Source: Isoptericola sp. AK164 (GTDB lineage: Bacteria > Actinomycetota > Actinomycetes > Actinomycetales > Cellulomonadaceae). Taken from it: a DNA stretch of 64,000 bases. The translations under genes were made by a program, and so were the position numbers. Where the stretch lies: NCBI RefSeq assembly GCF_029643425.1, contig NZ_CP119106.1:1178001-1242000 (forward strand), read 5' to 3'. Below the pieces are notes generated by a model. That model was not told the origin of the DNA. It did no database searches and was given only the letters and a program-made list of their open reading frames with translations. Positions 32,148-45,133 of the stretch are shown piece after piece. Numbering within the stretch: the stretch's first letter is position 1; each line of letters begins with the position of its first letter.

Positions 32148-33794
32148 GTGCAGCTCGTCGCCACCGACCTCTCCTACGCCTACCCGGAGCACCCCGTGCT
32201 CGACCGGGTGGACCTGCGCGTCTCCGACGGGGTCCGCCTCGGCGTCGTGGGGGAGAACGGGTCGGGCAAGTCGACGCTGCTGCACCTGCTGGCCGGCGAC
32301 CTGCCGACCCAGACCGGCGAGGTGCGCCGCCACGGCTCCGTGGCCCTGGTGACCCAGGAGCTCCACGAAGAACCCGGCCGCACCGTCGGCGACCTGGTCG
32401 AGGCCACGCTGGCCGACCTGCGGGCCCTCGCGGGCGAGCTGCAGCGTGCCGCCGAGGCCTTCGACCACGAGCGCGGAGACCTGCGCGAGCTCGGCGAGCT
32501 GCTGGGCCGCGTTGAGCACCTGGCGGCGTGGGACGCCGACCGCCGCGTCGACGAGGCCCTGACCCGCCTCGGTGCCGTGCGCGACCTCGACCGCCGCCTC
32601 GACACGCTGTCCGTCGGGCAGCGCTACCGGGTGCGCCTGGCGTGCCGGCTGGCCGAACGAGCCGACCTGCTGCTGCTGGACGAACCCACGAACCACCTCG
32701 ACGACTCCGGCGTCGCGTACCTGACCGAGCAGCTGCGGACCTGGCGCGGCGGCGTCGTGCTCGTCACCCACGACCGAGAGCTGCTCGACGACGTCGCTAC
32801 CGCGATCTACGACCTCGACCCCTCCATGGACGGGCGGCCCGTGCTCTACGGCCAGCCCGGCTACCACTCCTACCGGCTCGGCAAGGCGGCGATGCTCGCT
32901 CGCTGGCAGCAGCGCTACCGGGTCGAGCAGGAACGTGCCGAGGAGCTGTGGTTCCGCCGCGACCGCTCCTACGAGGGGCTCTCCGACGAGTGGCGTCCGC
33001 CCAAGGGCTCCCAGAAGCACCGCCGCGGCACCCGTGCCCGCATCCACGTCAAGGCCGCCGACCGGCTGGTGGAGAAGCTCGAGGCCGAGGCGCTCGACGT
33101 CCCGCCGCCGCCCCTGGAGCTCGCCTTCCCGGACCTGCCGGCGATGTCACCGGGGTGGGACCCCGGCGAACCGCTGGTCGAGCTGCGCTCGCCCCGGGTC
33201 GAGGCGCCCGACGGCACCGCGATGCTGGACCTGCCGGGCACCAGGTTGGCGGTACCGCCGTCGGGCCGGCTGCTCGTCGTCGGGTCGAACGGCACCGGGA
33301 AGTCCACGGCGCTGGCGGCGCTCGCCGGCACGGCCGAGCTCGCCCGCGGAGCCCGGACGCTGCGCGACGGCGTCAGGTTCGGGGTCGTCGCCCAGGAGCG
33401 CAGGACGGCGGACGGCGGCAGCGCCGGGAGATCCGGGTTCGACGCCTCTGCGGCGGAGGCGCTGGAGCTGTTGTCCCGCGGGGAGCTGGACCCGGACCAC
33501 CTGGTCCCGGTCGCCGCGCTCGGGCTGCTCACCGAGGACGAGCTGGACCGCCCGCTGCGCGAGCTGAGCGTCGGGCAGCAGCGGCGGTTCGACGTCGCGC
33601 TCGCGCTGCTGCACGCCCCGCACCTGCTGATCCTCGACGAGCCGACGAACCACCTGTCCGTGGACCTGGTGGACGCGCTGACGCTGGCGCTGCAGCGCAC
33701 GTCCGCCGCCGTCGTCGTCGCCACCCACGACCGCCGCATGCGGGCGGACCTGGCGGACTGGCCGATGCTCGACCTGAGCCGTCCCGCGAGGTAG
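32148..33794 (+). CDS. ABC-F family ATPase
   Basis: Protein of 548 aa with two ABC domains and no membrane segments. First domain: GENGSGKST, LSVGQRYRVRLA, LLLLDEPTNHLD. Second: GSNGTGKST, LSVGQQRRFDVA, LLILDEPTNHLS. A charged linker (about 240-310) separates them. ABC-F proteins act on ribosomes in translation or antibiotic protection; the exact subfamily is not clear. The GTG at 32148 is the start. The stop codon TAG lies inside the first unit of the 20-bp repeat array, so the gene abuts the island boundary. Confidence 0.93.
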   Translation: MQLVATDLSYAYPEHPVLDRVDLRVSDGVRLGVVGENGSGKSTLLHLLAGDLPTQTGEVRRHGSVALVTQELHEEPGRTVGDLVEATLADLRALAGELQRAAEAFDHERGDLRELGELLGRVEHLAAWDADRRVDEALTRLGAVRDLDRRLDTLSVGQRYRVRLACRLAERADLLLLDEPTNHLDDSGVAYLTEQLRTWRGGVVLVTHDRELLDDVATAIYDLDPSMDGRPVLYGQPGYHSYRLGKAAMLARWQQRYRVEQERAEELWFRRDRSYEGLSDEWRPPKGSQKHRRGTRARIHVKAADRLVEKLEAEALDVPPPPLELAFPDLPAMSPGWDPGEPLVELRSPRVEAPDGTAMLDLPGTRLAVPPSGRLLVVGSNGTGKSTALAALAGTAELARGARTLRDGVRFGVVAQERRTADGGSAGRSGFDASAAEALELLSRGELDPDHLVPVAALGLLTEDELDRPLRELSVGQQRRFDVALALLHAPHLLILDEPTNHLSVDLVDALTLALQRTSAAVVVATHDRRMRADLADWPMLDLSRPAR

Positions 33795-33856
33795 GCAACC
33801 TTCTGCCGAGGTAGGCAACCCACCGGCGAGGTAGGCAACTCACCGGCGAGGTCAGC
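33787..33856. repeat. 20-bp tandem repeat array at left island edge
   Basis: Three units with an exact 20-bp period start at 33787, 33807 and 33827, each beginning CGAGGTAGGCAAC; a fourth partial unit begins at 33847. Most units can fold as GAGGT-5 nt-ACCTC-type hairpins. The first two units, reverse-complemented, match 44001-44040 closely at the right edge. Confidence 0.85.
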
Positions 33857-33959
33857 CGACCGGCACGGCGCGCGGCTCGACGACCTGGCCGTCGGGTCGG
33901 TCCAGCGCGGGACCGTTCGCGCCGCGGGCGCCGACGCACGCGACCCCGGCCGCGCGCAG

Positions 33960-34517
33960 GTGACCGGGCCGGCCACGGCACCGACTATCGCCGCGGCACA
34001 CACCCCACAGCCGCTGCAGGCCGCGGCTGCGGCGCCCCAGGACGAGGTCGCCGAGCGTGACCGCGTGATCCTCGAGCTGGCTCGTGAGGGTGGCTCGGAA
34101 CGGCAGATCGCCGCGCAGACCCCGTGGTCGCGATCCACGGTCAACCGCGTGCTCAAGCGCCACGGTGTGCGCGCCGGCCAGCGCGCGACGACGTTCGACC
34201 TTGCGCCGGCGGGCGCGGACGGAGCCGCGCGGAATCAAGGGCACGGATCGTTCCTGCCGCTTCATCATTGCCGCCGCGACCGGCGCGCAAGCGGGCCACG
34301 GCCCGCCGCCTGGGACACAACTTCCCGGCCACGTCGCTGCGCTCCTTATTTCGACCGAGAACTTCTTCCCCTGTCGCCCTGCGGGTTGACGCGCCGGCCG
34401 CTGCTGACGGCACTGGCTCCGCTATCAGGAACGATCCCCACCACTGAACGCAGGAGGGCGACATGGTCACCGTCACCGTCTACAGCACTGGTCCGTCGTG
34501 CATCCGATGCCGCATGA
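33960..34517 (+). pseudogene. Truncated helix-turn-helix protein remnant
   Basis: The frame is open from inside the repeat array onward. A convincing helix-turn-helix appears at about 34050-34170 (ERDRVILELAREGGSERQ, then SRSTVNRVLKRHGVRAG), of the resolvase or IS-like recombinase C-terminal type. There is no good start: the GTG at 33960 is only the first available. The sequence beyond GVRAGQ loses protein character and runs past the start of the next gene, so the 3' end is probably degraded too. Likely the tail of a mobile-element regulator or replication protein cut at the island edge. Confidence 0.4.
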
Positions 34518-34714
34518 CGATCGACAAGCTGCAGGACAAGGGAGTCACGCCGGTCGTGGTCCAGCTGGCCGAGAACCCGGCCGCGCACGAGTACGTGACC
34601 GAAGAGCTCGGCTACAGCGAGGCCCCCGTGGTCGTCGTCGAGGACGGCACCGGACAGGACCACTGGAGCGGGTTTCGACCCGACCAGATCGCTCGCGTGG
34701 CCCGGGCGGCCTGA
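34463..34714 (+). CDS. NrdH-type glutaredoxin-like protein
   Basis: Protein of 83 aa with a thioredoxin fold. The redox motif CIRC is near residue 13, followed by RMTIDKLQDKG. The C-terminal AAHEYVTEELGYSEAPVVVV and WSGFRPDQI match NrdH redoxins, which reduce ribonucleotide reductase. NrdH usually has CxxC as CVQC; CIRC is a variant. GCAGGAGG precedes the ATG. It lies just before the primase gene, an arrangement seen in actinobacterial conjugative elements. Confidence 0.85.
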   Translation: MVTVTVYSTGPSCIRCRMTIDKLQDKGVTPVVVQLAENPAAHEYVTEELGYSEAPVVVVEDGTGQDHWSGFRPDQIARVARAA

Positions 34715-34743
34715 CCGTAGGCGCAGCAGAGAGGGTAGAGACC

Positions 34744-35763
34744 ATGACCACCACGGCACGGGTCCTGGCCGCGAACGCCGCGGCCTGGGACTACTGGCGC
34801 TGGCACGCCGGCCAGGCCGACGCCTGGGTGAGCGACTACCTCGCCGCCCGCGGGTTGCGCGGCACGGTCGCCGGCCAGGCCCCGGCCGGGTGGGCGCGGC
34901 TGGTGCCCACGCTGACCAAGCGAGGCTTCACCGAGGCTGAGCTGCTCGACGCCGGCCTGGCCGTGCGCGCCGGCAACGGCTCGGTGGGCGATGCCTTCCG
35001 GGACCGGATCATGCTGCCCATCTGCGATGACGCAGGGCAGATCATCGGATTCACCGCACGTGGCAACTCGGCCAGCGACGATGCAAACGAGCCGCCGGCG
35101 GAGTACCTGAACACCACCAGCACGGCCGTCTACGACAAGAGCCGGGCGCTGTACGGGCTGGACGCCAAGACCACACAGCGACTACGCCGCGGCGCAACAC
35201 CGGTACTGGTCGAGGGCGCCCTCGACGCCGAGGCCGTGCGCCGCACCGGCGCCGACCTCGTGCCCCTGGCCGCGTGTGGCACCGCCATCACCACCGGCCA
35301 CCTCGAGGCGCTGCGAGCCATCGACCCCGACAGCGTGGGCCGGCTGATCCTGGCCACCGACGCCGACACCGCGGGCCAGCGGGCCACCTGCCGCCTGGTC
35401 GGGCTGCTCACGCCCGACGAGGTCGCCACCGTGCGCGTCGCCGAGCTCGAGCCCGACACCGACCCGGCCGACCTGATCCAGCAGGGCCGGCGCACCGACC
35501 TGCGGGCCGCACTGGTCCACCAAGCCCGAACCCTGGCCGAGGTCGCCATCGACGCCACCCTGGCCAGCTACGACCTGACCAGCATCGAGGGCAGCGCCGC
35601 CCTGCGGCATGTCACCGCCGCCGTCGCGAGCCAGAACCCGGCCACCCTGGCCCATGCGACGACCCACCTGACCCACCGCCTGGCCCCCGTGCTGGACCAC
35701 GACATCGTCGCCGGCGAGATGGTCGACGCCATCACCACTTCGAGCAGCGGGGACGGTAAGTGA
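34744..35763 (+). CDS. Toprim-domain DNA primase of mobile-element type
   Basis: Protein of 339 aa. The N-terminal half resembles the DnaG catalytic core (DAFRDRIMLPICDDAGQIIGF, followed by YLNTTSTAVYDKSRALYG). The Toprim region has VLVEGALDAEAV and the LILATDADTAGQRA metal-binding DxD. The CHC2 zinc finger of DnaG is absent, as in element-encoded primases. It would prime replication or transfer DNA synthesis for the element. The ATG at 34744 follows AGAGAGGGTAG; the stop overlaps the GTG of the next short frame (GTGA). Confidence 0.85.
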   Translation: MTTTARVLAANAAAWDYWRWHAGQADAWVSDYLAARGLRGTVAGQAPAGWARLVPTLTKRGFTEAELLDAGLAVRAGNGSVGDAFRDRIMLPICDDAGQIIGFTARGNSASDDANEPPAEYLNTTSTAVYDKSRALYGLDAKTTQRLRRGATPVLVEGALDAEAVRRTGADLVPLAACGTAITTGHLEALRAIDPDSVGRLILATDADTAGQRATCRLVGLLTPDEVATVRVAELEPDTDPADLIQQGRRTDLRAALVHQARTLAEVAIDATLASYDLTSIEGSAALRHVTAAVASQNPATLAHATTHLTHRLAPVLDHDIVAGEMVDAITTSSSGDGK

Positions 35764-35987
35764 TCCGAACGAGTCTGCAGCACCACTGGTCCAGGTTCGC
35801 CGAGCCGGTGGCGGCCCAGCTGCGGATCGACCGCACCGGGCTCACTCCGGTGCCACGGCGCTGGAGCGAGCCTTCAACGAGGAATCCGACGATCACGCTG
35901 GTGAGAACACCTCTCAGATGGCCTACGCTGGAAAAGCGCCCCTGTCGTCGACTCTCTCAAGGCGCCACAAATCACGCCCAGGCTTAA
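35760..35987 (+). pseudogene. Short coupled ORF, probably truncated element gene
   Basis: Begins on a GTGA overlap with the primase stop, so it was part of that operon. The first 40 codons (IRTSLQHHWSRFAEPVAAQL and onward) look protein-like. After about 35865 coding character switches to another frame and then disappears where lower-GC sequence begins near 35934. Interpretation: the 5' remnant of a gene lost by deletion or insertion. No family recognised. Confidence 0.4.
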
Positions 35988-36324
35988 CTTCGACGCCGAA
36001 CACGTATCCCCGCGAGTCAAGTCCTGCATAGGCCGCTGCTGCGGCGCGCCGCCATCGCTGCCGTCGCAGTCGACAGATTGAAACATCGCAGTACTCCCCG
36101 ACCTCTGTCGGTGGATCCGTAGAGGCCGAACCGAGGGAATGAATCCGTCCGCCTTGATACTCAAAGAGGCCGAGGACTAGTTCGCCGCGGGCCAGGCAGA
36201 CTGCGGCGAACAGACTACCATTGCGCGCCGCGAGGCCAGGAGAATCTACAGCTTGGCGACCGGCCAGCAAATGCATGAATGCAGCGCTGTTCGAATCTCG
36301 CGCCTCCGGCTCTGTGGAACTCAT
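35923..36324 (-). CDS. Hypothetical protein in low-GC part of island
   Basis: Protein of 133 aa if started at the ATG at 36324. That start overlaps the stop of the upstream truncated gene (ATGA), which decides it over a GTG at 36354. The sequence shows no membrane helices or named domain; the middle is LFAAVCLARGELVLGLFEYQ and an Arg-rich stretch follows. TACACT, 6 nt before the ATG, could also serve as a -10 box for a leaderless message. GC content and codon use differ from the chromosome, suggesting recent acquisition. Confidence 0.55.
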   Translation of the reverse strand: MSSTEPEARDSNSAAFMHLLAGRQAVDSPGLAARNGSLFAAVCLARGELVLGLFEYQGGRIHSLGSASTDPPTEVGEYCDVSICRLRRQRWRRAAAAAYAGLDSRGYVFGVEVKPGRDLWRLERVDDRGAFPA

Positions 36325-36690
36325 GGTTCTAGTGTAGCGCTCCACGTGGCCCACCTGTCATTCACCGCGCCCGCATCAGTTTCTAGCCATGTCATCTGCA
36401 GCATCATCCGATCGCTCGAAACGAATTGATGCGGCAATGTTAGCCGGACCCCATTCCGTGAGTCGACCGCATCGATCGCGCAACTGTCGACAAATGCGCC
36501 GCATTCGAAGGTTGTAGGATTCCCGACAGGGATCCCCTTGGAATCAATGTCGTCGAAAGAATTTATCGTCACGTGCGCTGGAGGATTGTCGCTGGTGACC
36601 TCAAGAGACACTCCGCCGGTCGTCTCTGTCAAGACTTGGCTGTCTTCCCAGTTCACGCTCTCCGGGATTTCGTCCGGCTCGCCACTGTTG
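36321..36690 (-). pseudogene. 3' fragment of a hypothetical protein, cut by IS21 remnant
   Basis: About 120 C-terminal residues read as a normal acidic, beta-rich protein (SVNWEDSQVLTETTGGVSL, DIDSKGIPVGNPTTFECGAF) with a cysteine pair. Upstream of about 36690 the same frame enters the antisense of the istA remnant, so the 5' end is gone. The stop overlaps the next ATG (ATGA), so both belonged to one operon. No family recognised. Confidence 0.6.
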
Positions 36691-36882
36691 TCCCTGCTGG
36701 CCGCGATGCGCACCGCCCTGGCCAGCAACGTCCTGGACCCCGCCTCGATCATCATCGACGCCCGCCGCGCCGCTGAACCCCAGGTCGCCACCGTCACCAA
36801 GATCGATGCCCTGGCCCGCTACGACCGCCCCGCGCCCACCTTGGACAGCTACGACGCCCTGCTGGCCGGGAACGACCGATGA
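36691..36882 (+). mobile_element. istA 3' remnant (IS21 family)
   Basis: The last about 60 codons of an IS21-type transposase: LAAMRTALASNVLDPASII, RRAAEPQVATV, then RYDRPAPTLDSYDALLAG, the common IstA tail. The left junction near 36690 is approximate, set where the minus-strand gene fragment loses its frame. The stop overlaps the istB start (ATGA). Confidence 0.7.
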
Positions 36883-37647
36883 CCGGCAACGACGCCGCTC
36901 TGGCCGCGATCAACGTCGCCACCCGCAACCTCTACCTGGCCACCGTGCGCACCGAAGCGCAGCCCCTCGCAGACGCCGCCCTGCGCGAACAACAGTCCCA
37001 CCTGGCCTACCTCGCCGACGTCCTTGCCGCCGAGGTCGACGCCCGAGCCGAACGCCGCCGGCAACGACGGATCAAGGAAGCCAAGTTCCCCCGCACCAAA
37101 CGGCTCGCCGACTTCGACACCAGCTGCTCACCCATCGACGGCGCGACCCTGGCCGCCCTGGCCACCGGCACCTACCTCGAGGCCGGCCAGCCCGTCGTCC
37201 TGCTCGGCGACTCCGGAACCGGCAAGACCCACCTGCTCATCGCACTCGGCATCGCGGCCTGCCAGACGGGCAAAGCCGTGCGTTACCTGCGCGAACCTCA
37301 TCAACGAACTCGTCGAAGCCGCCGACGACCGCCAACTCGCCCGCACCGTGGCCCGCTACGGCCGCCTCGACCTCCTCCTGCTCGACGAGCTCGGCTACGT
37401 CCACGCCGACCCCCGCGGCGCCGAACTGCTCTTCCAGATCATGACCGAACGCGAAGAGAAAGCCTCCATCGACATCGCGACCAACCTGCCCTTCAGCGAA
37501 TGGGGCACCGTCTTCCCCGACCCCCGCCTCGTGGCCGCGATCGTCGACCGCATCACCTTCAACGCCCACATCCTGCAAACCGGCACCGAGTCCTACCGGC
37601 TCCGCACCTCCCAACACCGCCCCACCAGCCGGGGCCAAGATTCATGA
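36879..37647 (+). pseudogene. istB (IS21 helper ATPase), frameshifted
   Basis: The first part (to about 37290) reads in one frame: Walker A GDSGTGKTHLLIALG and GKAVRYL. The second part continues in another frame: NLINELVEAADDRQLAR, Walker B LLLLDELGYVHADPRG, then TNLPFSEWGTVFPDPRLVAA and DRITFNAHIL. The two halves join at about 37280-37300, where a single-base change breaks the gene. IstB assists IstA in target selection, so the copy is dead. GGGGCCA repeats near 37630 and 37655 may belong to the IS end. Confidence 0.85.
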
Positions 37648-37671
37648 CGACAAGTGGGGCCAGAACACTTG

Positions 37672-38050
37672 ACTACACGCACCTGGGAGCGGTTCACGCC
37701 GTTCCTGGCGTTCCCGCCGATGCTGCGCCGGGTCATCTACACCACGAACTCGATCGAGTCGCTGAACGACCAGCTACGCAAGATCATCAAGAACCGCGGC
37801 CACTTCCCGAACGACGACGCGGTCCGCAAGCTGTTGTGGCTGGCGATCTGCACCATCGAGGACAAGCGCGCCCGCGCCCGGGCCAAGGAACGCGGCCTGC
37901 CAGCCGGCAAGCGCAAGGCCTCCGGCAGGCTCGTCGAGGGCCAGGTCACCACGAACTGGAAGCAGGCCCTGGCCCAACTCGCGCTCGCCTACCCCGAGCG
38001 CATCGACCCCTACCTCTGAACTGCGCACTTACACAGAGAAGTTGACAAGC
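37672..38050 (+). mobile_element. IS256-family transposase 3' remnant
   Basis: Frame 37672-38019 encodes the C-terminal about 115 residues of a Mutator-like (IS256) transposase: RRVIYTTNSIESLNDQLRK, NRGHFPNDDAVRKLLWLA, NWKQALAQLALAYPERIDPY. The N-terminal two thirds, with the catalytic aspartates, are missing at the IS21 junction. The IS end, with ACTTACACAGAG and GTTGACAAG, runs to about 38050 and directly enters the next gene. Confidence 0.85.
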
Positions 38051-38052
38051 CC

Positions 38053-38991
38053 TTGGCAGGCGACCTGCAGCGCGAGTTCCCTGACCAGCGGGGCTGGTCA
38101 CGGTCGAACCTGCTGTACATGCGGCGGGCCGCGGAGACCTGGCCCACGGAGGAGGAGTTCGTCCAACAACCCGTTGGACGATTGCCGTGGGGGCACGTGA
38201 CGGTGCTGCTCGACCGGCTCAAGACCCGTGAAGAGCGCGACTGGTACGCCGAGAGGGCGGTCGAGGACGGCTGGTCGCGCGCGCTACTCGAGCACCAGAT
38301 CAAGGCGGACCTGCGCGGCGCCATCGGCGCAGCGCCGACGAACTTCACCGACGCCCTGGAAGCCCCGGACTCCGAGCTGGCGCAGCAGCTGGTCAGGGAC
38401 CCCTACGTCTTCGAGCACCTGGCGATGGTCGAACGCGTCGCCGAGCGCGATGTCGAGCAGGCACTGATGGACCGGCTGCAAGACACGATGCTCGAACTGG
38501 GTCGCGGCATGGCATTCGTCGGCCGCCAGGTGCGCCTGAGCGTGCCCGACGACGCCAGCGACCGCGTCGACGAATTCTACGTCGACCTGCTGTTCTTCCA
38601 CGTCGAGCAACTGCGCTACGTCGTGGTCGAACTCAAGATCGGGCCTTTCGAGCCCGCCCACGTCGGCCAACTGGGCACCTACATCGCGATCGTCGACGAC
38701 CAGATCCGTCGACCCGAGATCCACGCACCCACGATCGGGATCCTGCTGTGCACCGGCAAGTCGGGCCCGACGGTGCGGTACGCGTTGGCCAGTACCAGCG
38801 CGCCCGTCGCCGTCGCGGACTACCAAGGCCTGCCGGCAGACGCCCGCGGCGTGCTGCCCAGCGCGGCCGAGCTCGAGGCCGTCATCGAAGACGAACTCGA
38901 CCACCGCCGTGACGATCCGGCCTCCATCGCTAGCCCTCACCCGACCTTGGGGTCTGGTGCCCGAGACGCACAAGAGCGGGCCCGCACCTAA
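38053..38991 (+). pseudogene. DUF1016 (YhcG-like) PD-(D/E)XK nuclease, 5'-truncated by IS256
   Basis: 312 codons remain from the only available start, a TTG at 38053. The frame begins at LAGDLQREFPDQRGWSRSN, which in complete YhcG proteins follows about 50 N-terminal residues. The DUF1016 N-domain (to about residue 110) and the nuclease domain (FYVDLLFFHVEQLRYVVVEL, IGFPEP-like PFEPAHVGQLGTYI) are otherwise intact. YhcG-type proteins are associated with restriction/defence islands. The IS end lies immediately upstream, so expression would need a promoter in the IS. Confidence 0.8.
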
Positions 38992-39010
38992 GGAAGGTGC
39001 GGGCCCGCTC
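38974..39010. terminator. Strong terminator overlapping the DUF1016 stop codon
   Basis: A 16-bp perfect stem (38974-38989 with 38995-39010) and a 5-nt loop. The TAA stop of the DUF1016 gene (38989-38991) sits at the stem-loop junction, so the last codons form one arm of the hairpin. Confidence 0.85.
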
Positions 39011-39148
39011 CGTCTCTCAGCCGGACGTGGTGGTCGTTGTGCCCCAGTAGTTCGACCGCTAGCGGGGTACAACAGCCGCCGTCCGAGAGCGGCCCTCGTC
39101 CACGAGGCCCCCGACTCGTCAGTGGCTGGTCGGTAGTTCGGACAGTTG

Positions 39149-39352
39149 CTACGACCGCTCAGTTCGCGCCCGGCGAAGGAAGATTATGGGTCCAACCACC
39201 GGTGCGAAGACGGCCAGCGTAAGCCATCCCAACCCATCTCTGCCCCCTCGGGCGATCCAGGTGGCGATCGCGCAGACCATCAGAACTAGTGCGGAGAAGA
39301 TGGCCGCCACGGCGAGAGTCCAGAGGGCGTCATACTCTGCCGAAATGAACAT
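39149..39352 (-). CDS. Small membrane protein, PLDc_N-like
   Basis: Protein of 67 aa with two membrane helices (about 10-32 and 42-60). The ending LAVFAPVVGPIIFLRRAR resembles the phospholipase-D N-terminal (PLDc_N) membrane hairpin common in short actinobacterial proteins. CCGGAGGATAG precedes the ATG, a strong ribosome binding site. The region is lower in GC than the chromosome. Confidence 0.65.
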   Translation of the reverse strand: MFISAEYDALWTLAVAAIFSALVLMVCAIATWIARGGRDGLGWLTLAVFAPVVGPIIFLRRARTERS

Positions 39353-39385
39353 CTATCCTCCGGATTCTCGAATCAATGGTGAGAG

Positions 39386-40147
39386 TTAGAAATCAGCCGT
39401 GTGGCTGAACCTGTCATTCCCCACCTCAATGACAAGCGTGTACGAGCGCCCCCCACCAGCGCAGAGGATATCTCCATCCATCACCATCGACGCCCGAGCC
39501 GGCGCGCCTGATGTCGACTCGGTCTTGCGGTTGACGCTGAGCGATGCCGAAGCGCACCCCTGGGCGTACCGGTAGCTGCCAGTGTGCGCACGTAGAATCT
39601 TGTCGCGCCCCGAGTGCCAAATCTCGGCGTCGACGGCGAACTTCATCTTCGTCGTGCCCCTGGTCCAATCGACAAAGCAGTCGTCGACGGTGTTGTACGT
39701 CGACCGGTGCACGGTGTACCCGCATCCGAGCCACCGCCTTGGCATGATGCCATCCGTCGCCGCCGGCTGCTGAACGGAGAGGACCGCGATGGAGCCATCC
39801 TCGTAGCGCTTGACGGTCTCCGATTTACCGAGGGCGTCGTTGGTCTCGACGGAGACTGGCGCCGCGGTGGGATCGTTGGCATCCCATGCCACGCCGCGAT
39901 CAAGCTTCTCGAACAACTCATCTTGGGTCGCGGTCGGTACCGAGTAGCGGTCCATGATGTCCCGGAAGTACTGCTCATCATCGACCTCGGGGCGATCAAT
40001 CACCGCTGACGCTGGCGCGGCCTGCTGTTAAGTGTCTGGTGTGTCTGTGCCAGGAGCAGCACTTGCAGGACCCACTAGGGCCAGCGCGGCAACCGCCGCA
40101 ACTAGGGTAACGCTGGAAGCCACTTTGCTTCTCAAGATGGTAATCAA
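39386..40147 (-). pseudogene. Secreted hypothetical protein split by a stop codon after its signal peptide
   Basis: The mature part (GTG at 40003 to 39386, 205 codons) has no named domain but contains two cysteine pairs and a beta-rich C-terminus. Immediately upstream in the same frame, 40147 to 40031 encodes a clear signal peptide: basic start, VTLVAAVAALALVGPASA, then APGTDTPDT. A TAA at 40028-40030 interrupts, followed by QQAAPASAVIDRPEVDDE. A single CAA-to-TAA change would explain it. A good promoter lies upstream. Without readthrough or internal initiation, no exported product is made. Confidence 0.7.
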
Positions 40148-40186
40148 ATCCTCTCGTTCGTGACGATTGTCGCTCGTAGCAACGAA

Positions 40187-40217
40187 ACCGTACCTCAGTT
40201 TCCGAGGCCGCTGTCAA
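40187..40217 (-). promoter_or_regulatory. Sigma-70-like promoter of the broken secreted-protein gene
   Basis: TTGACA (40217-40212) and TACGGT (40192-40187) with a 19-bp spacer. The start of transcription would fall near 40180, about 33 nt before the first possible TTG start, with GAGAGG close to that start. Confidence 0.5.
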
Positions 40218-40319
40218 GGGGGCTCATGGGACTCGGTTGGCGCAAAGCGCGCGATCCGCGACGCGTTCTGATCGTCGACGCTGGGTCCAGCAACACCCCA
40301 TATCCAGGCCAGACGTCCG

Positions 40320-40763
40320 TCACGGTTGGTGCTCACGGACGTCGGGGAACATGCCTGCCGGCGGAGCGATGTAGGGCAACGGTTCGCCGCGCTTGGAGGC
40401 GTTCTCGGTGCCCTCGGTCGCCGTGGCGAACGGACCGTCGGGATCCATCAGGACGGTCATGTGATGGTCGACGTGGTCGCGCCACCACACGCTCATGCCG
40501 GTGGCGGGGTCGAGGCGCAGGTGTTCCCAGGACCGCCAGAGCGCTTCGAGCCGGATCACGGCCTCAGGGTGCTGCCACCAGCGGCCGGCCCAGCACCGGT
40601 GGCGGCCGTCGATGCGGCGCCGGTAGACGTGGCGCAGGTAGTCGCGCACGAACTCGTCGACGGACCCGTAGTACAGCTGCGGGGTCTCGTCGGGCTCACC
40701 AACCTCGTCGCCCGGCTCGACGTCGTCCGGGGTGCCGATGTCGTCTTCGCCCCAGTCGCTCAT
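40320..40763 (-). CDS. DUF4913 domain protein
   Basis: Protein of 147 aa. After an acidic N-terminus, YGSVDEFVRDYLRHVYRR, CWAGRWWQHPEAVIRLEALW and WWRDHVDHHMTVLMDPDG form the DUF4913 domain, found almost only in actinobacterial conjugative elements downstream of the coupling protein gene. Function unknown. The ATG overlaps the TraG-like stop (ATGA). Confidence 0.88.
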   Translation of the reverse strand: MSDWGEDDIGTPDDVEPGDEVGEPDETPQLYYGSVDEFVRDYLRHVYRRRIDGRHRCWAGRWWQHPEAVIRLEALWRSWEHLRLDPATGMSVWWRDHVDHHMTVLMDPDGPFATATEGTENASKRGEPLPYIAPPAGMFPDVREHQP

Positions 40764-42556
40764 GCCGTGGTCCTTTCGAGTTCGCCGGCCTCCACCTCGG
40801 CGACCGAGTCTTCCGCTTCCTGGATCGTGCGTGCGGCCTGCGGGTCGTGGGCGTCGAGGGACGCCTGCACGGCGGCAGCGTGCGGGCCGGTCATCCAGGG
40901 CTTGGTTCGGATCAGGGTGGGTCGTGATCCGGAGGCCAGGACCACGGCGCGACCCTTGGGCAGGGCGGCGAGGTCGGCGACGTCGAGGATGCGTTCACGG
41001 TGCAGCTGCTGGGAGACGGTGCGATGTCCCCGACCGGACGACGTCGAGGACTGCAGGCGGTCGTAGTCGCCGATCATGCGTGACAGGTCCTCGAGGAAGA
41101 CGGTCTCGGAGACGCCGCCGCCGTAGACCTTGACGTTGGAGGCGCTCCACAGCTTCTTCATCCCGGACTCTCCCCATACCTCGACGCCCTGGGACCAGGA
41201 CTGCAAGATCGTCATGAGCACGATCCCGCGCGAGCCGTAGTGGGAGTACAGGTTGGGCAGCTCGCGCCACCGGCACACGTTCGCGGCTTCGTCCAGGACG
41301 CCGAGCAGCGGCGTGGCCAGCCGGCCGCCGGCGGAGGCGGCAGCGAGCTCTTCAGCGGCTTCGACGACGGCGACGGTCAGGGCGGTGACCAGGGGTCCGG
41401 CGGTGCCGCGCCCCTCCTTGGACAGCGAGTACAGGGTGCCGCCTTCGGCGCCCACGAAGTCCTCGGGCCGCAGCTGGGGGCGGTCGTCGGCCGGCCCGTT
41501 CGGGGTGACCCAGCGGGCGACCTGCCGGTTCGTCAGGCACGAGGCCATCTGCTGGGCGGTGCCGAACACGCCACCGCGCTGCTTATCCGGGGCCGCCACG
41601 ACGCCGGCGACCTGGTCCGAGGTCAGGGTGAAGCCGTGCTCGCGCAGGATGTCGACGGCCGTCTCGTCGGTGGGGCGGGTCAGCCAGGAGTACACGTCGG
41701 TGATCGGTCGGGAGTCCAGGGCCGCGGCCAGCAGCAGCCCGGCGAGCAGGTCCTGTCCGGCGGGGTCGAAGTAGGCGTCGGTCTTGGCGCCCGGGTCGCG
41801 GGACCCGGAGGCGAAGTGCTCGGCGAGCTTGGCGGCGCGGACCTCGTCGGTGACGTAGGACAGCGGGTTCCACCACCACGTCGGTTCCTCGCGCGCGATC
41901 GCCTGCGGGTCGAAGACCCACACTGGCCCGGCCGCGGCGCGCACGTCGCGGGTGGCGTCGACGACGTCGCGCTTGTTCGACGTCACCAGCACCGACCCTG
42001 GCGCCTCGAGGATCGCCGGTACCGCGCGGGAGGTCGTCTTGCCGGTGCGCGGGCCCCAGATGTCGATGTGCATGTCCTCCCAGGAGCCGAACAGCGGCTG
42101 CCCCGTGCCGACGGTCTGGCCGATCGGGACCCCGGGGGTCTCGCCGGCGCCCAGGCGGCGAGCCTTGGCGGCGGCGCTCTTGCGGCTCAGGTCGGCGACG
42201 TCGCGGCCGCGGCCCATGTAGGCCGCGGCGCGGTCCACCCGGGAGCGGCGACGGCGCATCCGAGTCATCGCGACCGTGGCCACGACGGTCAGGACCAGGA
42301 TCACGGAGGCCACCACACCCAGCACCCACCAGCCGGGAGTGCCCGGCCACGCGAGCTCGCCGTCGAGGATCCCGAAGAACACGTCGAAGGGGTTGGCCGG
42401 GACGGTCTCGCCGGTACCGGCGATGCGATGACCGATCCGCATCGCGAAGTACAGCGATCCGACGACCAGCACGACCAGCACGATGCCGACCCAGAGCAGC
42501 GCCATCTCGCCGGTCAGGCCGCCGGGGTCTCGGCGGCGGTTGTTCGGGGTGCTCAT
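40760..42556 (-). CDS. TraG/VirD4-type conjugal coupling ATPase
   Basis: Protein of 598 aa. Two N-terminal membrane helices (about 17-39 and 72-94) anchor it. A TraG/TraD-like ATPase domain follows: Walker A-like GPRTGKTTSRAVPAI, VLVTSNKRDVV, TWWWNPLSYV, Walker B LLGVLDEAANVCRW, and SRGIVLMTILQSWSQ. It recruits relaxosome DNA to the transfer channel. It is coupled by ATGA overlaps to both neighbours. Appears intact. Confidence 0.9.
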   Translation of the reverse strand: MSTPNNRRRDPGGLTGEMALLWVGIVLVVLVVGSLYFAMRIGHRIAGTGETVPANPFDVFFGILDGELAWPGTPGWWVLGVVASVILVLTVVATVAMTRMRRRRSRVDRAAAYMGRGRDVADLSRKSAAAKARRLGAGETPGVPIGQTVGTGQPLFGSWEDMHIDIWGPRTGKTTSRAVPAILEAPGSVLVTSNKRDVVDATRDVRAAAGPVWVFDPQAIAREEPTWWWNPLSYVTDEVRAAKLAEHFASGSRDPGAKTDAYFDPAGQDLLAGLLLAAALDSRPITDVYSWLTRPTDETAVDILREHGFTLTSDQVAGVVAAPDKQRGGVFGTAQQMASCLTNRQVARWVTPNGPADDRPQLRPEDFVGAEGGTLYSLSKEGRGTAGPLVTALTVAVVEAAEELAAASAGGRLATPLLGVLDEAANVCRWRELPNLYSHYGSRGIVLMTILQSWSQGVEVWGESGMKKLWSASNVKVYGGGVSETVFLEDLSRMIGDYDRLQSSTSSGRGHRTVSQQLHRERILDVADLAALPKGRAVVLASGSRPTLIRTKPWMTGPHAAAVQASLDAHDPQAARTIQEAEDSVAEVEAGELERTTA

Positions 42557-43911
42557 GCTGGCGTTCCTTCCTCGATGCGGCCGGTGCGAGACTGATCCGT
42601 CCAGCGCGCCGCACTCATGTGCAGGGACCGCTCGGCCGCGGTGAGCACCAGGTCGACCGGGATGCCGGGCCTGCCGCCGACCTTGACCAGGAACTTGCCG
42701 CGCCCGGGTGGAGGTGCTTGCTGGCCCTCCTTGGAGTCCCACGCCGGCGGGTCCTGCCAGCCGCCGAGCAGATCCTGCTCGGCGCCCGACAGCGACACGA
42801 TGGAGGACAGCAGCGGCATCTCGCTGAACGGCAGGCCTCCGCACACGACCAGGCCCGACCGCTCGATGAACCCCATGGCCTTCTGCCGGTCCTCTTCGTA
42901 GGGCAAGGACCGCAGATCCTTCATGGTGTGGGTGATCATCGCCAGGCCGACGCCGACGGTGCGGTTCAGCCGCGTCAGGTAGTCGACGCGATCGACGAGG
43001 CCGGGGCCGGCCTTGAGCGCCTGGTGCAGCTCGTCGAGGATCACGAAGTAGTGCCTACGCGCCTCCAAATCGAAGTCGGCCAGCGTCTGGGCCGTCTTGA
43101 CCACGGCGAAGCCGGCCGACCAGGAGGCCAGCAGGGCGACCGCCCGCAGATCGGCATCGGACTGCGGAATCGCCGAGACGTCGTAGACGACGGCGCGGTC
43201 ACGCCGCATCGGCTGCGTGGTCGGTCGGGCGAACACGTCGCCGAACTTTCCACCGGGGCACAGCGCCACGAGGGAGGCCTCGAGCTCTTCGGTGATCGCC
43301 TGGTACTTCGAGGTGGTGCCGCGGTCCAGCGCTGCCTCCCGCAGCTCGGGCGGCGCGGCACGCACCACCTGCAGCAGGTCCGGGATCAACGGCACGCCGT
43401 CGTGGTGCTCGTCAAGCCAGTCGATGGCCCGCGACAGGATTGTGCTCTCGCGTGCCGTCGGTTCGCTCTTGCGCAGCACGGTGATCAGTGACAGCACCAT
43501 GTTCAGACGCAGTCCTTGGGCGTCGGCCAGGACCTCGTCAGCGGCCTGGTCGTACCCGGCCGAGCGCAGTCGGGCCGCCGCCTGGGGGGCCTCCCCGGGA
43601 TCGAGCACATTCAGCGAGCCACGGTGGCGACCGAGCGGGATCACCTGACCACCGAGCTGCTCGACCATCCGGATGTAGTCCGGCCGGGTGTCCCCGAGCA
43701 CCAGTGGGCTGACGCCCATGCCGGCCAGGCCGACCGCCATGCGCATCACCGCCGACGTCTTGCCCAGACCGGGACGACCCAGGAAGAACACGGACGGGTT
43801 GCCGATGAGGTTGGCACGCTGGTACCAGCTGATCGGGTCGCAGCACACCGTCGCGCCGGTCTGAATGTGCCGCCCGAACGGCACACCGATCGCAGGAGCA
43901 GCCGCACCGAT
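42553..43911 (-). pseudogene. VirB4/TraC-like conjugation ATPase, 5'-truncated at repeat array
   Basis: From the GTG at 43884, 443 codons read as the C-terminal ATPase half: Walker A GRPGLGKTSAV, Walker B HYFVILDELHQALKAG, and TRLNRTVGVGLAMITHT. The frame stays open upstream to 43926, where it stops inside the 20-bp repeat array; GAAAPAIGVPFGR before the GTG looks like genuine protein. Family members carry several hundred more N-terminal residues, so the gene was cut at the island edge. Motor function without the N-terminal domain is doubtful. Confidence 0.75.
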
Positions 43912-44042
43912 CGAGTAGGCAACTCACCGGCGAGGTAGGCAAGTAGTCCGTGAGGTAGGCGTCGACCCTGCGAGGCGACTCGCTCCTCGCGCTACCTCGC
44001 CGAGAGGTTGCCTACCTCGGCAGGAGGTTGCCTACCTCGCGG
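43912..44042. repeat. 20-bp-period repeat array at right island edge, with inverted units
   Basis: Plus-oriented units start at 43912 (19 bp, one G short), 43931 and 43951, and a decayed one at 43971. From about 43991 the same unit runs in reverse (CCTACCTCG...GAGGTTG), ending at 44040 beside the DUF4916 stop. The 20-bp phase is kept across the switch. The reverse units match the first two units of the left array. Confidence 0.85.
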
Positions 44043-44612
44043 TCAGTCGAGACGGCCGACGTGCGCCATCGCCTGGCGCACGAGAGCCCCCTGGCCGTTG
44101 ACCATCTCGGCCTGGACCGTGTCGCTGCACGCCTCCTCGGGCGTGAGCCAGGCGAGGTCGAGCGCGTTCTGCTGCGGGCGGCAGTCACCCGTCACCGGCA
44201 CCACGTAGGCGAGCGAGATCGCGTGCTGGCGCGGGTCGTGGAACGGCGTGATGCCCGGGGTCGGGAAGTACTCAGCGACCGTGAACGGCTGCGGGGAGGC
44301 AGGCACCCGGGGGAGGGCCACCGGACCCAGGTCCTTCTCGATGTGGCGCAGCAGGGCGTCGCGGACGCGCTCGTGGTACAGCACCCGGCCCGTCACCAGG
44401 GCGCGGGTCATGTTGCCCAGCGGGCTGGCGCGCAGCAGCAGACCCACGGCGACGACGTCGCCCGAGTCGTCGACGCGGACCGGGATGGCGTCGACGTACA
44501 CCAGGGGCAGCTGCGCACGCACGGAGGCGAGGTCCTCGGGCGTGAGCCAGCCGGTCGGGCCGGGCTCGTGTCCGTTGTCGTCGTCGGGAGGGAACTCGGC
44601 GGTGTCGGTCAC
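44043..44612 (-). CDS. DUF4916 (Nudix-like) domain protein
   Basis: Protein of 189 aa. GWLTPEDLASVRAQLPLVYV, the long VLYHERVRDALLRHIEKDLG helix, and EYFPTPGITPFHDPRQHAI match the actinobacterial DUF4916 family, Nudix-like and of unknown substrate. The GTG at 44612 is chosen because the family begins there; GAGGG abuts it and TACAAA sits 6 nt upstream, so a leaderless message is possible. The 3' end touches the right repeat array. Divergent from trxA. Confidence 0.85.
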   Translation of the reverse strand: MTDTAEFPPDDDNGHEPGPTGWLTPEDLASVRAQLPLVYVDAIPVRVDDSGDVVAVGLLLRASPLGNMTRALVTGRVLYHERVRDALLRHIEKDLGPVALPRVPASPQPFTVAEYFPTPGITPFHDPRQHAISLAYVVPVTGDCRPQQNALDLAWLTPEEACSDTVQAEMVNGQGALVRQAMAHVGRLD

Positions 44613-44665
44613 CCCTCGTTTGTACCAGCCGCACGGTGGTGAGGGCTCGTGCAGGTGTGATCCAC

Positions 44666-44682
44666 TGGTCGGAGTCCGACCA
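44666..44682. promoter_or_regulatory. Perfect palindrome between DUF4916 and thioredoxin genes
   Basis: TGGTCGGA-G-TCCGACCA, eight matching bases on each side of one central base, in the 143-bp divergent region. Size and symmetry suit a dimeric repressor, but no regulator gene is adjacent. Confidence 0.4.
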
Positions 44683-44755
44683 CGCGGTCCGGGAATACCC
44701 CGAGGGGTTTCATTGCTCGCACCCGTAGCAGGACATCCCAACGAGAGGACTTCGC

Positions 44756-45133
44756 ATGGCCACCGTCGAGCTCACCGACTCCACCTTCGAGCAGGCGATC
44801 AAGGACAACGACATCGTGCTGGTCGACTTCTGGGCCTCCTGGTGCGGCCCGTGCCGCCAGTTCGCGCCCGTCTTCGAGGCGTCGAGCGAGGAGAACCCCG
44901 ACGTCGTGCACGGCAAGCTCGACACCGAGGCGCAGCAGCAGATCGCCGCCGCCGCCGGTGTCACCGCCATCCCGACGCTCATGGCGTTCCGCGAGGGCAT
45001 CATGGTCTTCAACCAGGCCGGCGCCCTGCCCGCGCCCGCTCTGAAGCAGGTCGTCGACGCGGTCAAGGACCTGGACATGGACGACGTCCGGGAGCAGATC
45101 GCCGCGGCGCAGGACGGCCAGCACCAGGACTGA
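44756..45133 (+). CDS. trxA: Thioredoxin
   Basis: Protein of 125 aa. The redox centre WCGPC is at residues 29-33 in VLVDFWASWCGPCRQF, and the cis-proline loop is VTAIPTLMAF. The C-terminus is about 15 residues longer than classic thioredoxin (DVREQIAAAQDG), as in several actinobacteria. GAGAGGA precedes the ATG. It reduces cytosolic disulfides, possibly including those of the Bcp peroxiredoxin encoded 4 kb away. Confidence 0.93.
   Translation: MATVELTDSTFEQAIKDNDIVLVDFWASWCGPCRQFAPVFEASSEENPDVVHGKLDTEAQQQIAAAAGVTAIPTLMAFREGIMVFNQAGALPAPALKQVVDAVKDLDMDDVREQIAAAQDGQHQD

Follow-up and report, generated by a model that had tools for sequence, protein, structure and literature searches.

We analysed a stretch of 64,000 nucleotides (hereafter the window) from the chromosome of Isoptericola sp. 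AK164 (contig NZ_CP119106.1, positions 1,178,001 to 1,242,000), in which a 20-bp repeat unit, CGAGGTAGGCAAC followed by seven further bases, is arrayed on both edges of a decayed island. The island lies between an ABC-F gene and a convergent gene that, following the preliminary description of this DNA, we take to be NUDIX-like/DUF4916. Our analysis indicates that the repeats are a gene-end repeat system, not the ends of the island, and that the island probably fell into it. Arrays of this kind are abundant, lie at gene ends, keep a strict phase and conserve their sites rather than their spacers; they come in dialects, and arrays of different dialects share gene ends. The locus is laid out as follows (window coordinates):

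32148..33794, + strand: ABC-F gene, upstream of the forward arm
33787..33852, + strand: left array remnant, three forward units (33787-33806, 33807-33826, 33827-33846) and the first 6 bp of a fourth (CGAGGT, to 33852)
33831..33852 (left) and 43915..43936 (right), + strand: 22-bp direct repeat GTAGGCAACTCACCGGCGAGGT flanking the island
33853..43914, no strand: decayed island inside the array, from Pfam and NCBIfam profile matches in scanned frames
43915..43970, + strand: right forward arm, a partial unit (43915-43930) and then units 43931-43950 and 43951-43970
about 43971..43999, no strand: array centre, hairpin between the innermost forward and reversed parts
43980..44039, - strand: right reversed arm, units 44020-44039, 44000-44019 and 43980-43999
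44043..44612, - strand: NUDIX-like/DUF4916 gene, convergent, by the reversed arm

As the preliminary description had stated, the same unit stands at both edges, one-way on the left and forward then reversed on the right (the latter at 43915-44039). Two of the reversed units carry the full core and the innermost carries CTACCTCG only. The match between the reversed units and the left array, previously read as a terminal inverted repeat, is real (44 of 48 positions identical), but the reversal is the usual two-arm layout between convergent genes. The outer genes do end in or near the arrays: unit 1 supplies the TAG (33792-33794) with which the ABC-F gene stops, and the reversed arm ends 3 bp from the NUDIX-like stop codon. 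With up to two mismatches allowed, the window contains 15 copies of the 12-bp core GAGGTAGGCAAC; shuffles contain 2.7 +/- 1.6, and none of 100 reached 15. A scan of window positions 33000-45000 against Rfam gave nothing at gathering score, and an NCBIfam profile scan of the NUDIX-like gene product gave no match.

The preliminary description had proposed searching the complete genome for the unit, and this search placed most of the arrays at gene ends elsewhere. In the 3,576,703-bp chromosome the exact core occurs 87 times forward and 66 times reverse, 153 in all, while a reversed-pattern control occurs on neither strand; tandem dimers with up to three mismatches number 233, against none for the control. 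Clustering took in 79 of the 87 forward and all 66 reverse exact hits, together with loci added by the dimer scan, and gave about 41 array loci among the matches listed.

Where the arrays lie relative to genes was determined from 40 loci of AK164 (G000) and 107 stretches from relatives, the latter picked by exact three-unit arrays of the GT-type core CGAGGTAG among the matches listed; 145 of these GT-type arrays (43 in G000, 102 in relatives) have both flanks, with genes called by us from codon usage and not from annotation. Arrays fall between convergent genes in 25/43 cases in G000 and 56/102 in relatives, compared with 9/61 gene pairs in the window, and between divergent genes in 0/43 and 8/102, respectively, those eight being possible gene-calling errors. 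Two-arm arrays run forward-then-reversed in 64 cases and reversed-then-forward in one. Where an array between co-directional genes has a single direction, it faces away from the stop codon in 30 of 34 cases; stop codon and array are separated by a median of 5.5 bp over 218 gene ends.

At 65 of these 218 ends the TAG of the unit is itself the stop codon of the neighbouring gene, compared with a TAG stop in 5 of 62 window genes. This excess would suit arrays that serve as stop-codon safety nets, the 20-bp period placing TAG, or TGA for the opposite strand, in every frame past genes. Such a role would leave the conserved bases past the stop unexplained. Moreover, the forward unit of the TC-type core CGAGTCAG, found in three related genomes, contains no stop when read forward; even so, single-direction arrays behind co-directional + genes are mixed there (five forward and two reversed in G003/G008, none and two in G013), and we give the safety-net idea scarcely any weight.

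The phase of the units is strict. Successive exact cores on the same strand are separated by 20 bp in 147 steps in G000, with none at 19 bp and two at 21 bp; the corresponding numbers in relatives are 338, one and eight, and TC-type cores take 20-bp steps in 167/169 and 66/71 cases in two sets. Twenty base pairs is the commonest spacing in every set compared, with 21 bp in 10/41 steps in genus g6. Across 356 units, information content falls from 1.4-2.0 bits in positions 1-10 to about 1.0 in positions 11-12 and 0.2-0.7 in positions 13-20. A site is about 11 bp long, with CGAG first, then two dialect bases, AG and more dialect bases. Since the spacers of adjacent units match at only 0.61, compared with 0.53 in random arrays, most units are not fresh copies of their neighbours. 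A drifting spacer with a kept site and phase is the pattern expected of a row of binding sites.

The dialect bases differ between genomes. Among 18 genomes of the genus, the CGAG-GT-AG and CGAG-TC-AG dialects never occur in one genome: 11 are GT, three are TC and four have neither. These counts are of dimers, not arrays; exact CGAGGTAG dimers at 20 bp are found in the 11 GT genomes, and CGAGTCAG dimers with up to one mismatch number 375 in G003, 362 in G008, 113 in G013 and none in GT-type genomes. Dialects differ further downstream. In the consensus, CGAGGTAG is followed by GCAAc in G000 and Isoptericola chiayiensis (G001), CGC in G017, tgc in I. halotolerans, TtC in Krasilnikoviella flava, TAC in Isoptericola sp. 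QY 916, and AAC in I. halalbus and Oerskovia flava (8 units only), while CGAGTCAG is followed by CGC in G003/G008 and GaC in G013. In a tree of 55 proteins (17,762 columns), G013 is the sister of G000, with 91.8% protein identity, and G001 lies outside this pair with support 1.0. G013, the closest relative compared, has no exact G000 core and carries arrays of the other dialect, two of them at gene ends shared with G000. Because G000 and G001 have one core, parsimony places the switch on the branch of G013; the TC dialect of G003/G008 sits on another branch.

Sharing of gene ends across dialects was assessed over 155 regions in one 200-kb block, where each genome had 2-7 array regions in a given comparison. 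Two pairs of regions (genes 84/94 and 13/16) were joined manually, and the tests on genome pairs are not independent of one another. Arrays were sought here, as in the hairpin comparison below, by each genome's own core, so that G006 and G014 are array-free by construction. G017 (GT) and G013 (TC) have four array regions in common, compared with 0.3 expected (p 6.5e-6), G001 and G013 share three (p 3e-4), and G000 and G013 share two (p 0.004). Overlap reached p < 0.01 in 10 of the 12 (non-independent) GT-TC genome pairs. Since the core differs as a whole between close species, something in the cell may read the arrays, with the reading having changed.

We propose that the arrays are dispersed, cis-acting rows of phased sites at which a putative factor binding DNA or RNA would insulate converging transcription or terminate it, a reading of the repeat pattern to which we would give about an even chance. 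Each array offers short sites (about 11 bp) every 20 bp, beginning at or just past the stop codon; GT-type arrays mostly have their sites pointing away from the gene, and convergent genes often have an arm each, the arms facing. A sequence-specific protein may fill these sites on DNA or on nascent RNA, about every two helical turns, and once bound may halt or insulate converging transcription; were its specificity to change, sites genome-wide would follow. Clusters of TTF-I sites downstream of mammalian rDNA specify termination (PMC3772059). Clustered sites 3' of genes, a feature of such factor-dependent terminator arrays, are found here too, and by analogy a single factor is predicted; unlike the TTF-I case, which concerns eukaryotic RNA polymerase I and one type of locus, the arrays are bacterial and stand at dozens of gene ends.

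More tentatively, and as something short of probable, the arrays may form a gene-end punctuation code with one lineage-specific reader whose specificity has switched at least twice (between GT and TC), the arrays genome-wide adopting the new dialect while many kept their gene ends, a bacterial counterpart of TTF-I clusters with dialects like those of DNA uptake sequences (DUS, see below). If so, phased sites of one reader would mark a set of bacterial gene ends, and the code would have been rewritten between species with about 92% protein identity. The co-evolution of a nucleic-acid-binding factor with many sites would then be testable, by comparing G000 with G013 and the array-rich G007 with its sister G006, and the way would be open to a possible terminator or insulator of high-GC bacteria that depends on a factor.

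Several observations weigh against a reader of phased gene-end sites. The position of arrays is not always kept: none is present at the ABC-F/NUDIX-like site in G013, G003 or G008, and G000 overlaps G003 at one region (p 0.15) and G008 at none. Orientation is looser in the TC-type genomes G003/G008, where 4/36 arrays run reversed-then-forward, and the single-direction arrays of TC genomes point both ways, as given above. Below gene 32, arrays in G003, G008, G013 and G007 (three dialects) are reversed-only, those in G001 and G017 are two-armed, and G000 has none. Furthermore, G002, G006, G009 and G014 have neither core and lack CGAG four times at 20 bp, and neither G006 nor G014 has any other 20-bp array in the block, so arrays are either dispensable or unrecognised in these two genomes; G006 lacks any searched core genome-wide even though its sister is array-rich. 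A presence/absence check for a trans-acting factor in the 200-kb block found no gene that fitted. Three genes absent from G006 were considered as candidates for such a factor and failed in other genomes. Finally, the arms of 29 two-plus-two elements of genus g6 (all pairs at that offset among the matches listed; see below for these elements) co-vary, with 9.17 of 12 positions matching compared with 7.61 when permuted (0/20000), and 9.15 compared with 8.00 when permuted within genomes (0/20000), which favours a hairpin.

Intrinsic bidirectional terminators sit between convergent genes, and arrays could be expanded versions of them, in which an ancestral GC-rich bidirectional two-plus-two hairpin grew its arms by tandem duplication and the RNA hairpin acts with no protein. 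The place is the same, and a central hairpin is possible in two-arm arrays. Indeed, two-arm arrays (60-330 nt) fold far below shuffled sequences, 21/21 having z below -2 with a mean of -10.5. By contrast, single-arm arrays, which are 19 of the 43 in G000, hardly fold (n=18, mean z -1.16, three below -2), and a single unit with 4 nt on each side shows only a weak tendency (minimum free energy -8.7, compared with -7.3 shuffled, 356 units). Pairing between arms was examined in groups with at least three two-arm arrays each, stratified by species (80 of the 107 relatives' stretches, those of known species, together with the loci of G000, G003, G008, G013, G017 and G007). On the inner side of the innermost cores, 12 nt match from arm to arm above permuted levels in GT types (p 0.005 in G000 and 0.0004 in other GT-type genomes; p 0.14 in TC-type). 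The outermost spacers are unmatched in G000 (p 0.38) and TC types (p 0.84), with a weak match in other GT-type genomes (p 0.017), and all opposite-arm spacer pairs in G000 match at 0.516, compared with 0.531 at random. In our reading, two-arm arrays combine a small hairpin at the centre with rows of sites.

Also in favour of a terminator, four array-less genomes have strong GC hairpins at gene 129 (scores 41-57.5), compared with 17 in G000 and 15.5 in G001, whereas at gene 129/130 an array and a strong hairpin occur together in G017 (45), and on the facing side in G003 (58) and G013 (54). Nor are strong hairpins (score at least 28) clearly rarer at array ends, a further point against a separate reader: the fraction is 0.20 of 51 array ends, 0.23 of 74 array-less ends with an array-bearing ortholog and 0.28 of 256 convergent ends. 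The idea that arrays and hairpins are mutually exclusive was thus rejected, gene 129 being suggestive in some genomes and contradicted by others, with the overall result not significant. The terminator explanation leaves the strict 20-bp phase and the genome-wide dialects unexplained, and we regard it, the main rival to a binding factor, as unlikely, while noting that even if the arrays are hairpin-based, the dialect difference at shared positions still demands explanation.

Other known repeat families share parts of the pattern attributed here to a binding factor. Repetitive extragenic palindromes and their mosaic elements (REP/BIME; GTAG- or CGTC-tagged) are many short extragenic repeats lying mainly between convergent or co-directional genes and often facing (PMC3733652). 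The arrays are likewise extragenic, in high copy, 3' of genes and in many facing pairs, and GTAG, as in GTAG-type REPs (PMC3733652), occurs within the GT dialects (it is missing from the TC dialects). They could be selfish repeats that owe their spread to a REP-associated tyrosine transposase, or to something similar, and that favour gene 3' ends. Unlike REPs, however, the arrays are long and have a 20-bp period, the unit is not clearly palindromic, and arrays keep gene ends while the core differs. The Y1_Tnp family (PF01797, REP-type) matched in none of the 18 genus genomes, compared with 5 of 14 control genomes, and we consider a REP-like origin improbable.

DNA uptake sequences also occur as facing pairs at gene ends. 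Like the arrays, they come in species dialects: in Neisseriaceae, variants of a short motif with a common core differ genome-wide from species to species (PMC3630211). Array cores are strictly 20-bp phased at gene ends, with almost no scattered intergenic copies: in six 164-200-kb blocks, 129 of 133 off-array copies of CGAGGTAG/CTACCTCG are coding, all in one antisense frame, and only four of these 8-mers are intergenic, whereas true DUS number thousands per genome (PMC3630211). An uptake-type function is accordingly very improbable. The arrays thus resemble REPs by place and DUS by dialects but fail defining features of both. We found no description of these repeats in the open-licence PMC literature, and the main text of PMC3733652 contains no occurrence of Isoptericola, Cellulomonas or Actinobacteria.

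Turning back to the island, the preliminary description had suggested comparing the ABC-F/NUDIX-like junction with that of an island-free relative. The NUDIX-like ortholog is present in 18/18 genus genomes, and in 15 of the 17 relatives the ABC-F end lies within about 1.2 kb of the NUDIX-like gene end, some with other short inserts, which is too close to accommodate this island; for the remaining two, the fetched stretch yielded no ABC-F end. I. chiayiensis (G001) has, between the two genes, a two-arm array of the same core and no island. At the same site G005, G015, G016 and G017 carry three to four units with a different spacer, and G007 carries three reversed units. Because relatives bear arrays there, G001 without the island, the array at this site most likely predates the island, as judged from these comparisons, and the island is probably a passenger inserted into a pre-existing gene-end array.

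The island itself contains a helix-turn-helix (HTH) remnant, a glutaredoxin, a DnaG_N/Toprim protein, IstB (IS21) and IS256 transposase remnants, a YhcG/DUF1016 nuclease, DUF4913, a VirD4/TraG coupling protein and a VirB4-like protein. At window positions 36879-38019, IstB homology split over two frames adjoins the C-terminal end of an IS256 transposase, and the island therefore holds remnants of two insertion sequence (IS) families; in the frames scanned, only these IstB and IS256 fragments, and no intact transposase, were matched. The models for the VirB4-like protein (42553-43884) match from profile position 410 or 508 onward, so its N-terminal half is missing near the array start, in agreement with the earlier remark that this gene is cut there. 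No integrase family was matched in the scanned frames (ten with Pfam, eight with NCBIfam), consistent with the earlier view of an island inside a tandem-repeat array and not at a conventional attachment (att) site. A 22-bp direct repeat does stand at both island ends, though adjoining array units may repeat anyway, and it could represent an att-like core or a target duplication, or be no more than a pair of identical array units.

The proposal that the arrays are terminal inverted repeats of the conjugative island, or ends of it that are prone to recombination, draws on this direct repeat and on the array at both edges. It can hardly be right, given the array without an island in G001 and about 40 further array loci in the genome. 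On the same grounds, arrays as ends of an island or transposon were rejected. That the tandem repeat is insertion-prone is an idea based on this single case of an island within an array. The single contig and the G001 array argue against misassembly at the island junctions, which reads alone could exclude.

The array system belongs to the family and is strongest in Isoptericola and its relatives. The three-unit pattern CGAGNNAG occurs in 4/159 genomes of the order, all in Isoptericola's family, and 60/219 family genomes have CGAG four times at 20 bp; hits outside the genus are weak evidence, because in several of those genomes the reversed control scores as many matches as the pattern. In 20 stretches fetched from other genera, chosen for CGAG every 20 bp, none of the 21 CGAG-phased runs lies inside a called gene: eight are between convergent genes, seven between ++ genes, three between -- genes and one between divergent genes, and two are without both flanks. 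Cores in these genera include CGAGCGCGGTAC, CGAGTGGAGCG and CGAGTCCGGCAC.

Compact two-plus-two palindromes (CGAGGTCGTACC... or CGAGGTAGAACC...) of about 69 bp lie at gene ends in the blocks of G003, G013 and G017 and at the loci of genus g6; found in more than one genus, they may be the ancestral form. An Isoptericola-type array was also seen in QAPD01000052.1 (L070), titled Sphaerisporangium cinnabarinum, a title that may be wrong.

Two further observations concern the chromosome of AK164. With dnaA at 34-1410, oriC is probably near position 0, and the interval 1.35-2.43 Mb (the presumed terminus) holds 2 of the 41 array loci, compared with 12.4 expected (binomial p 7e-5, for an interval picked post hoc). 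The locus at 70,490-70,721 (L009) has twelve near-identical forward units, the longest single-arm run among the loci of this genome, which suggests that they arose by recent tandem growth.

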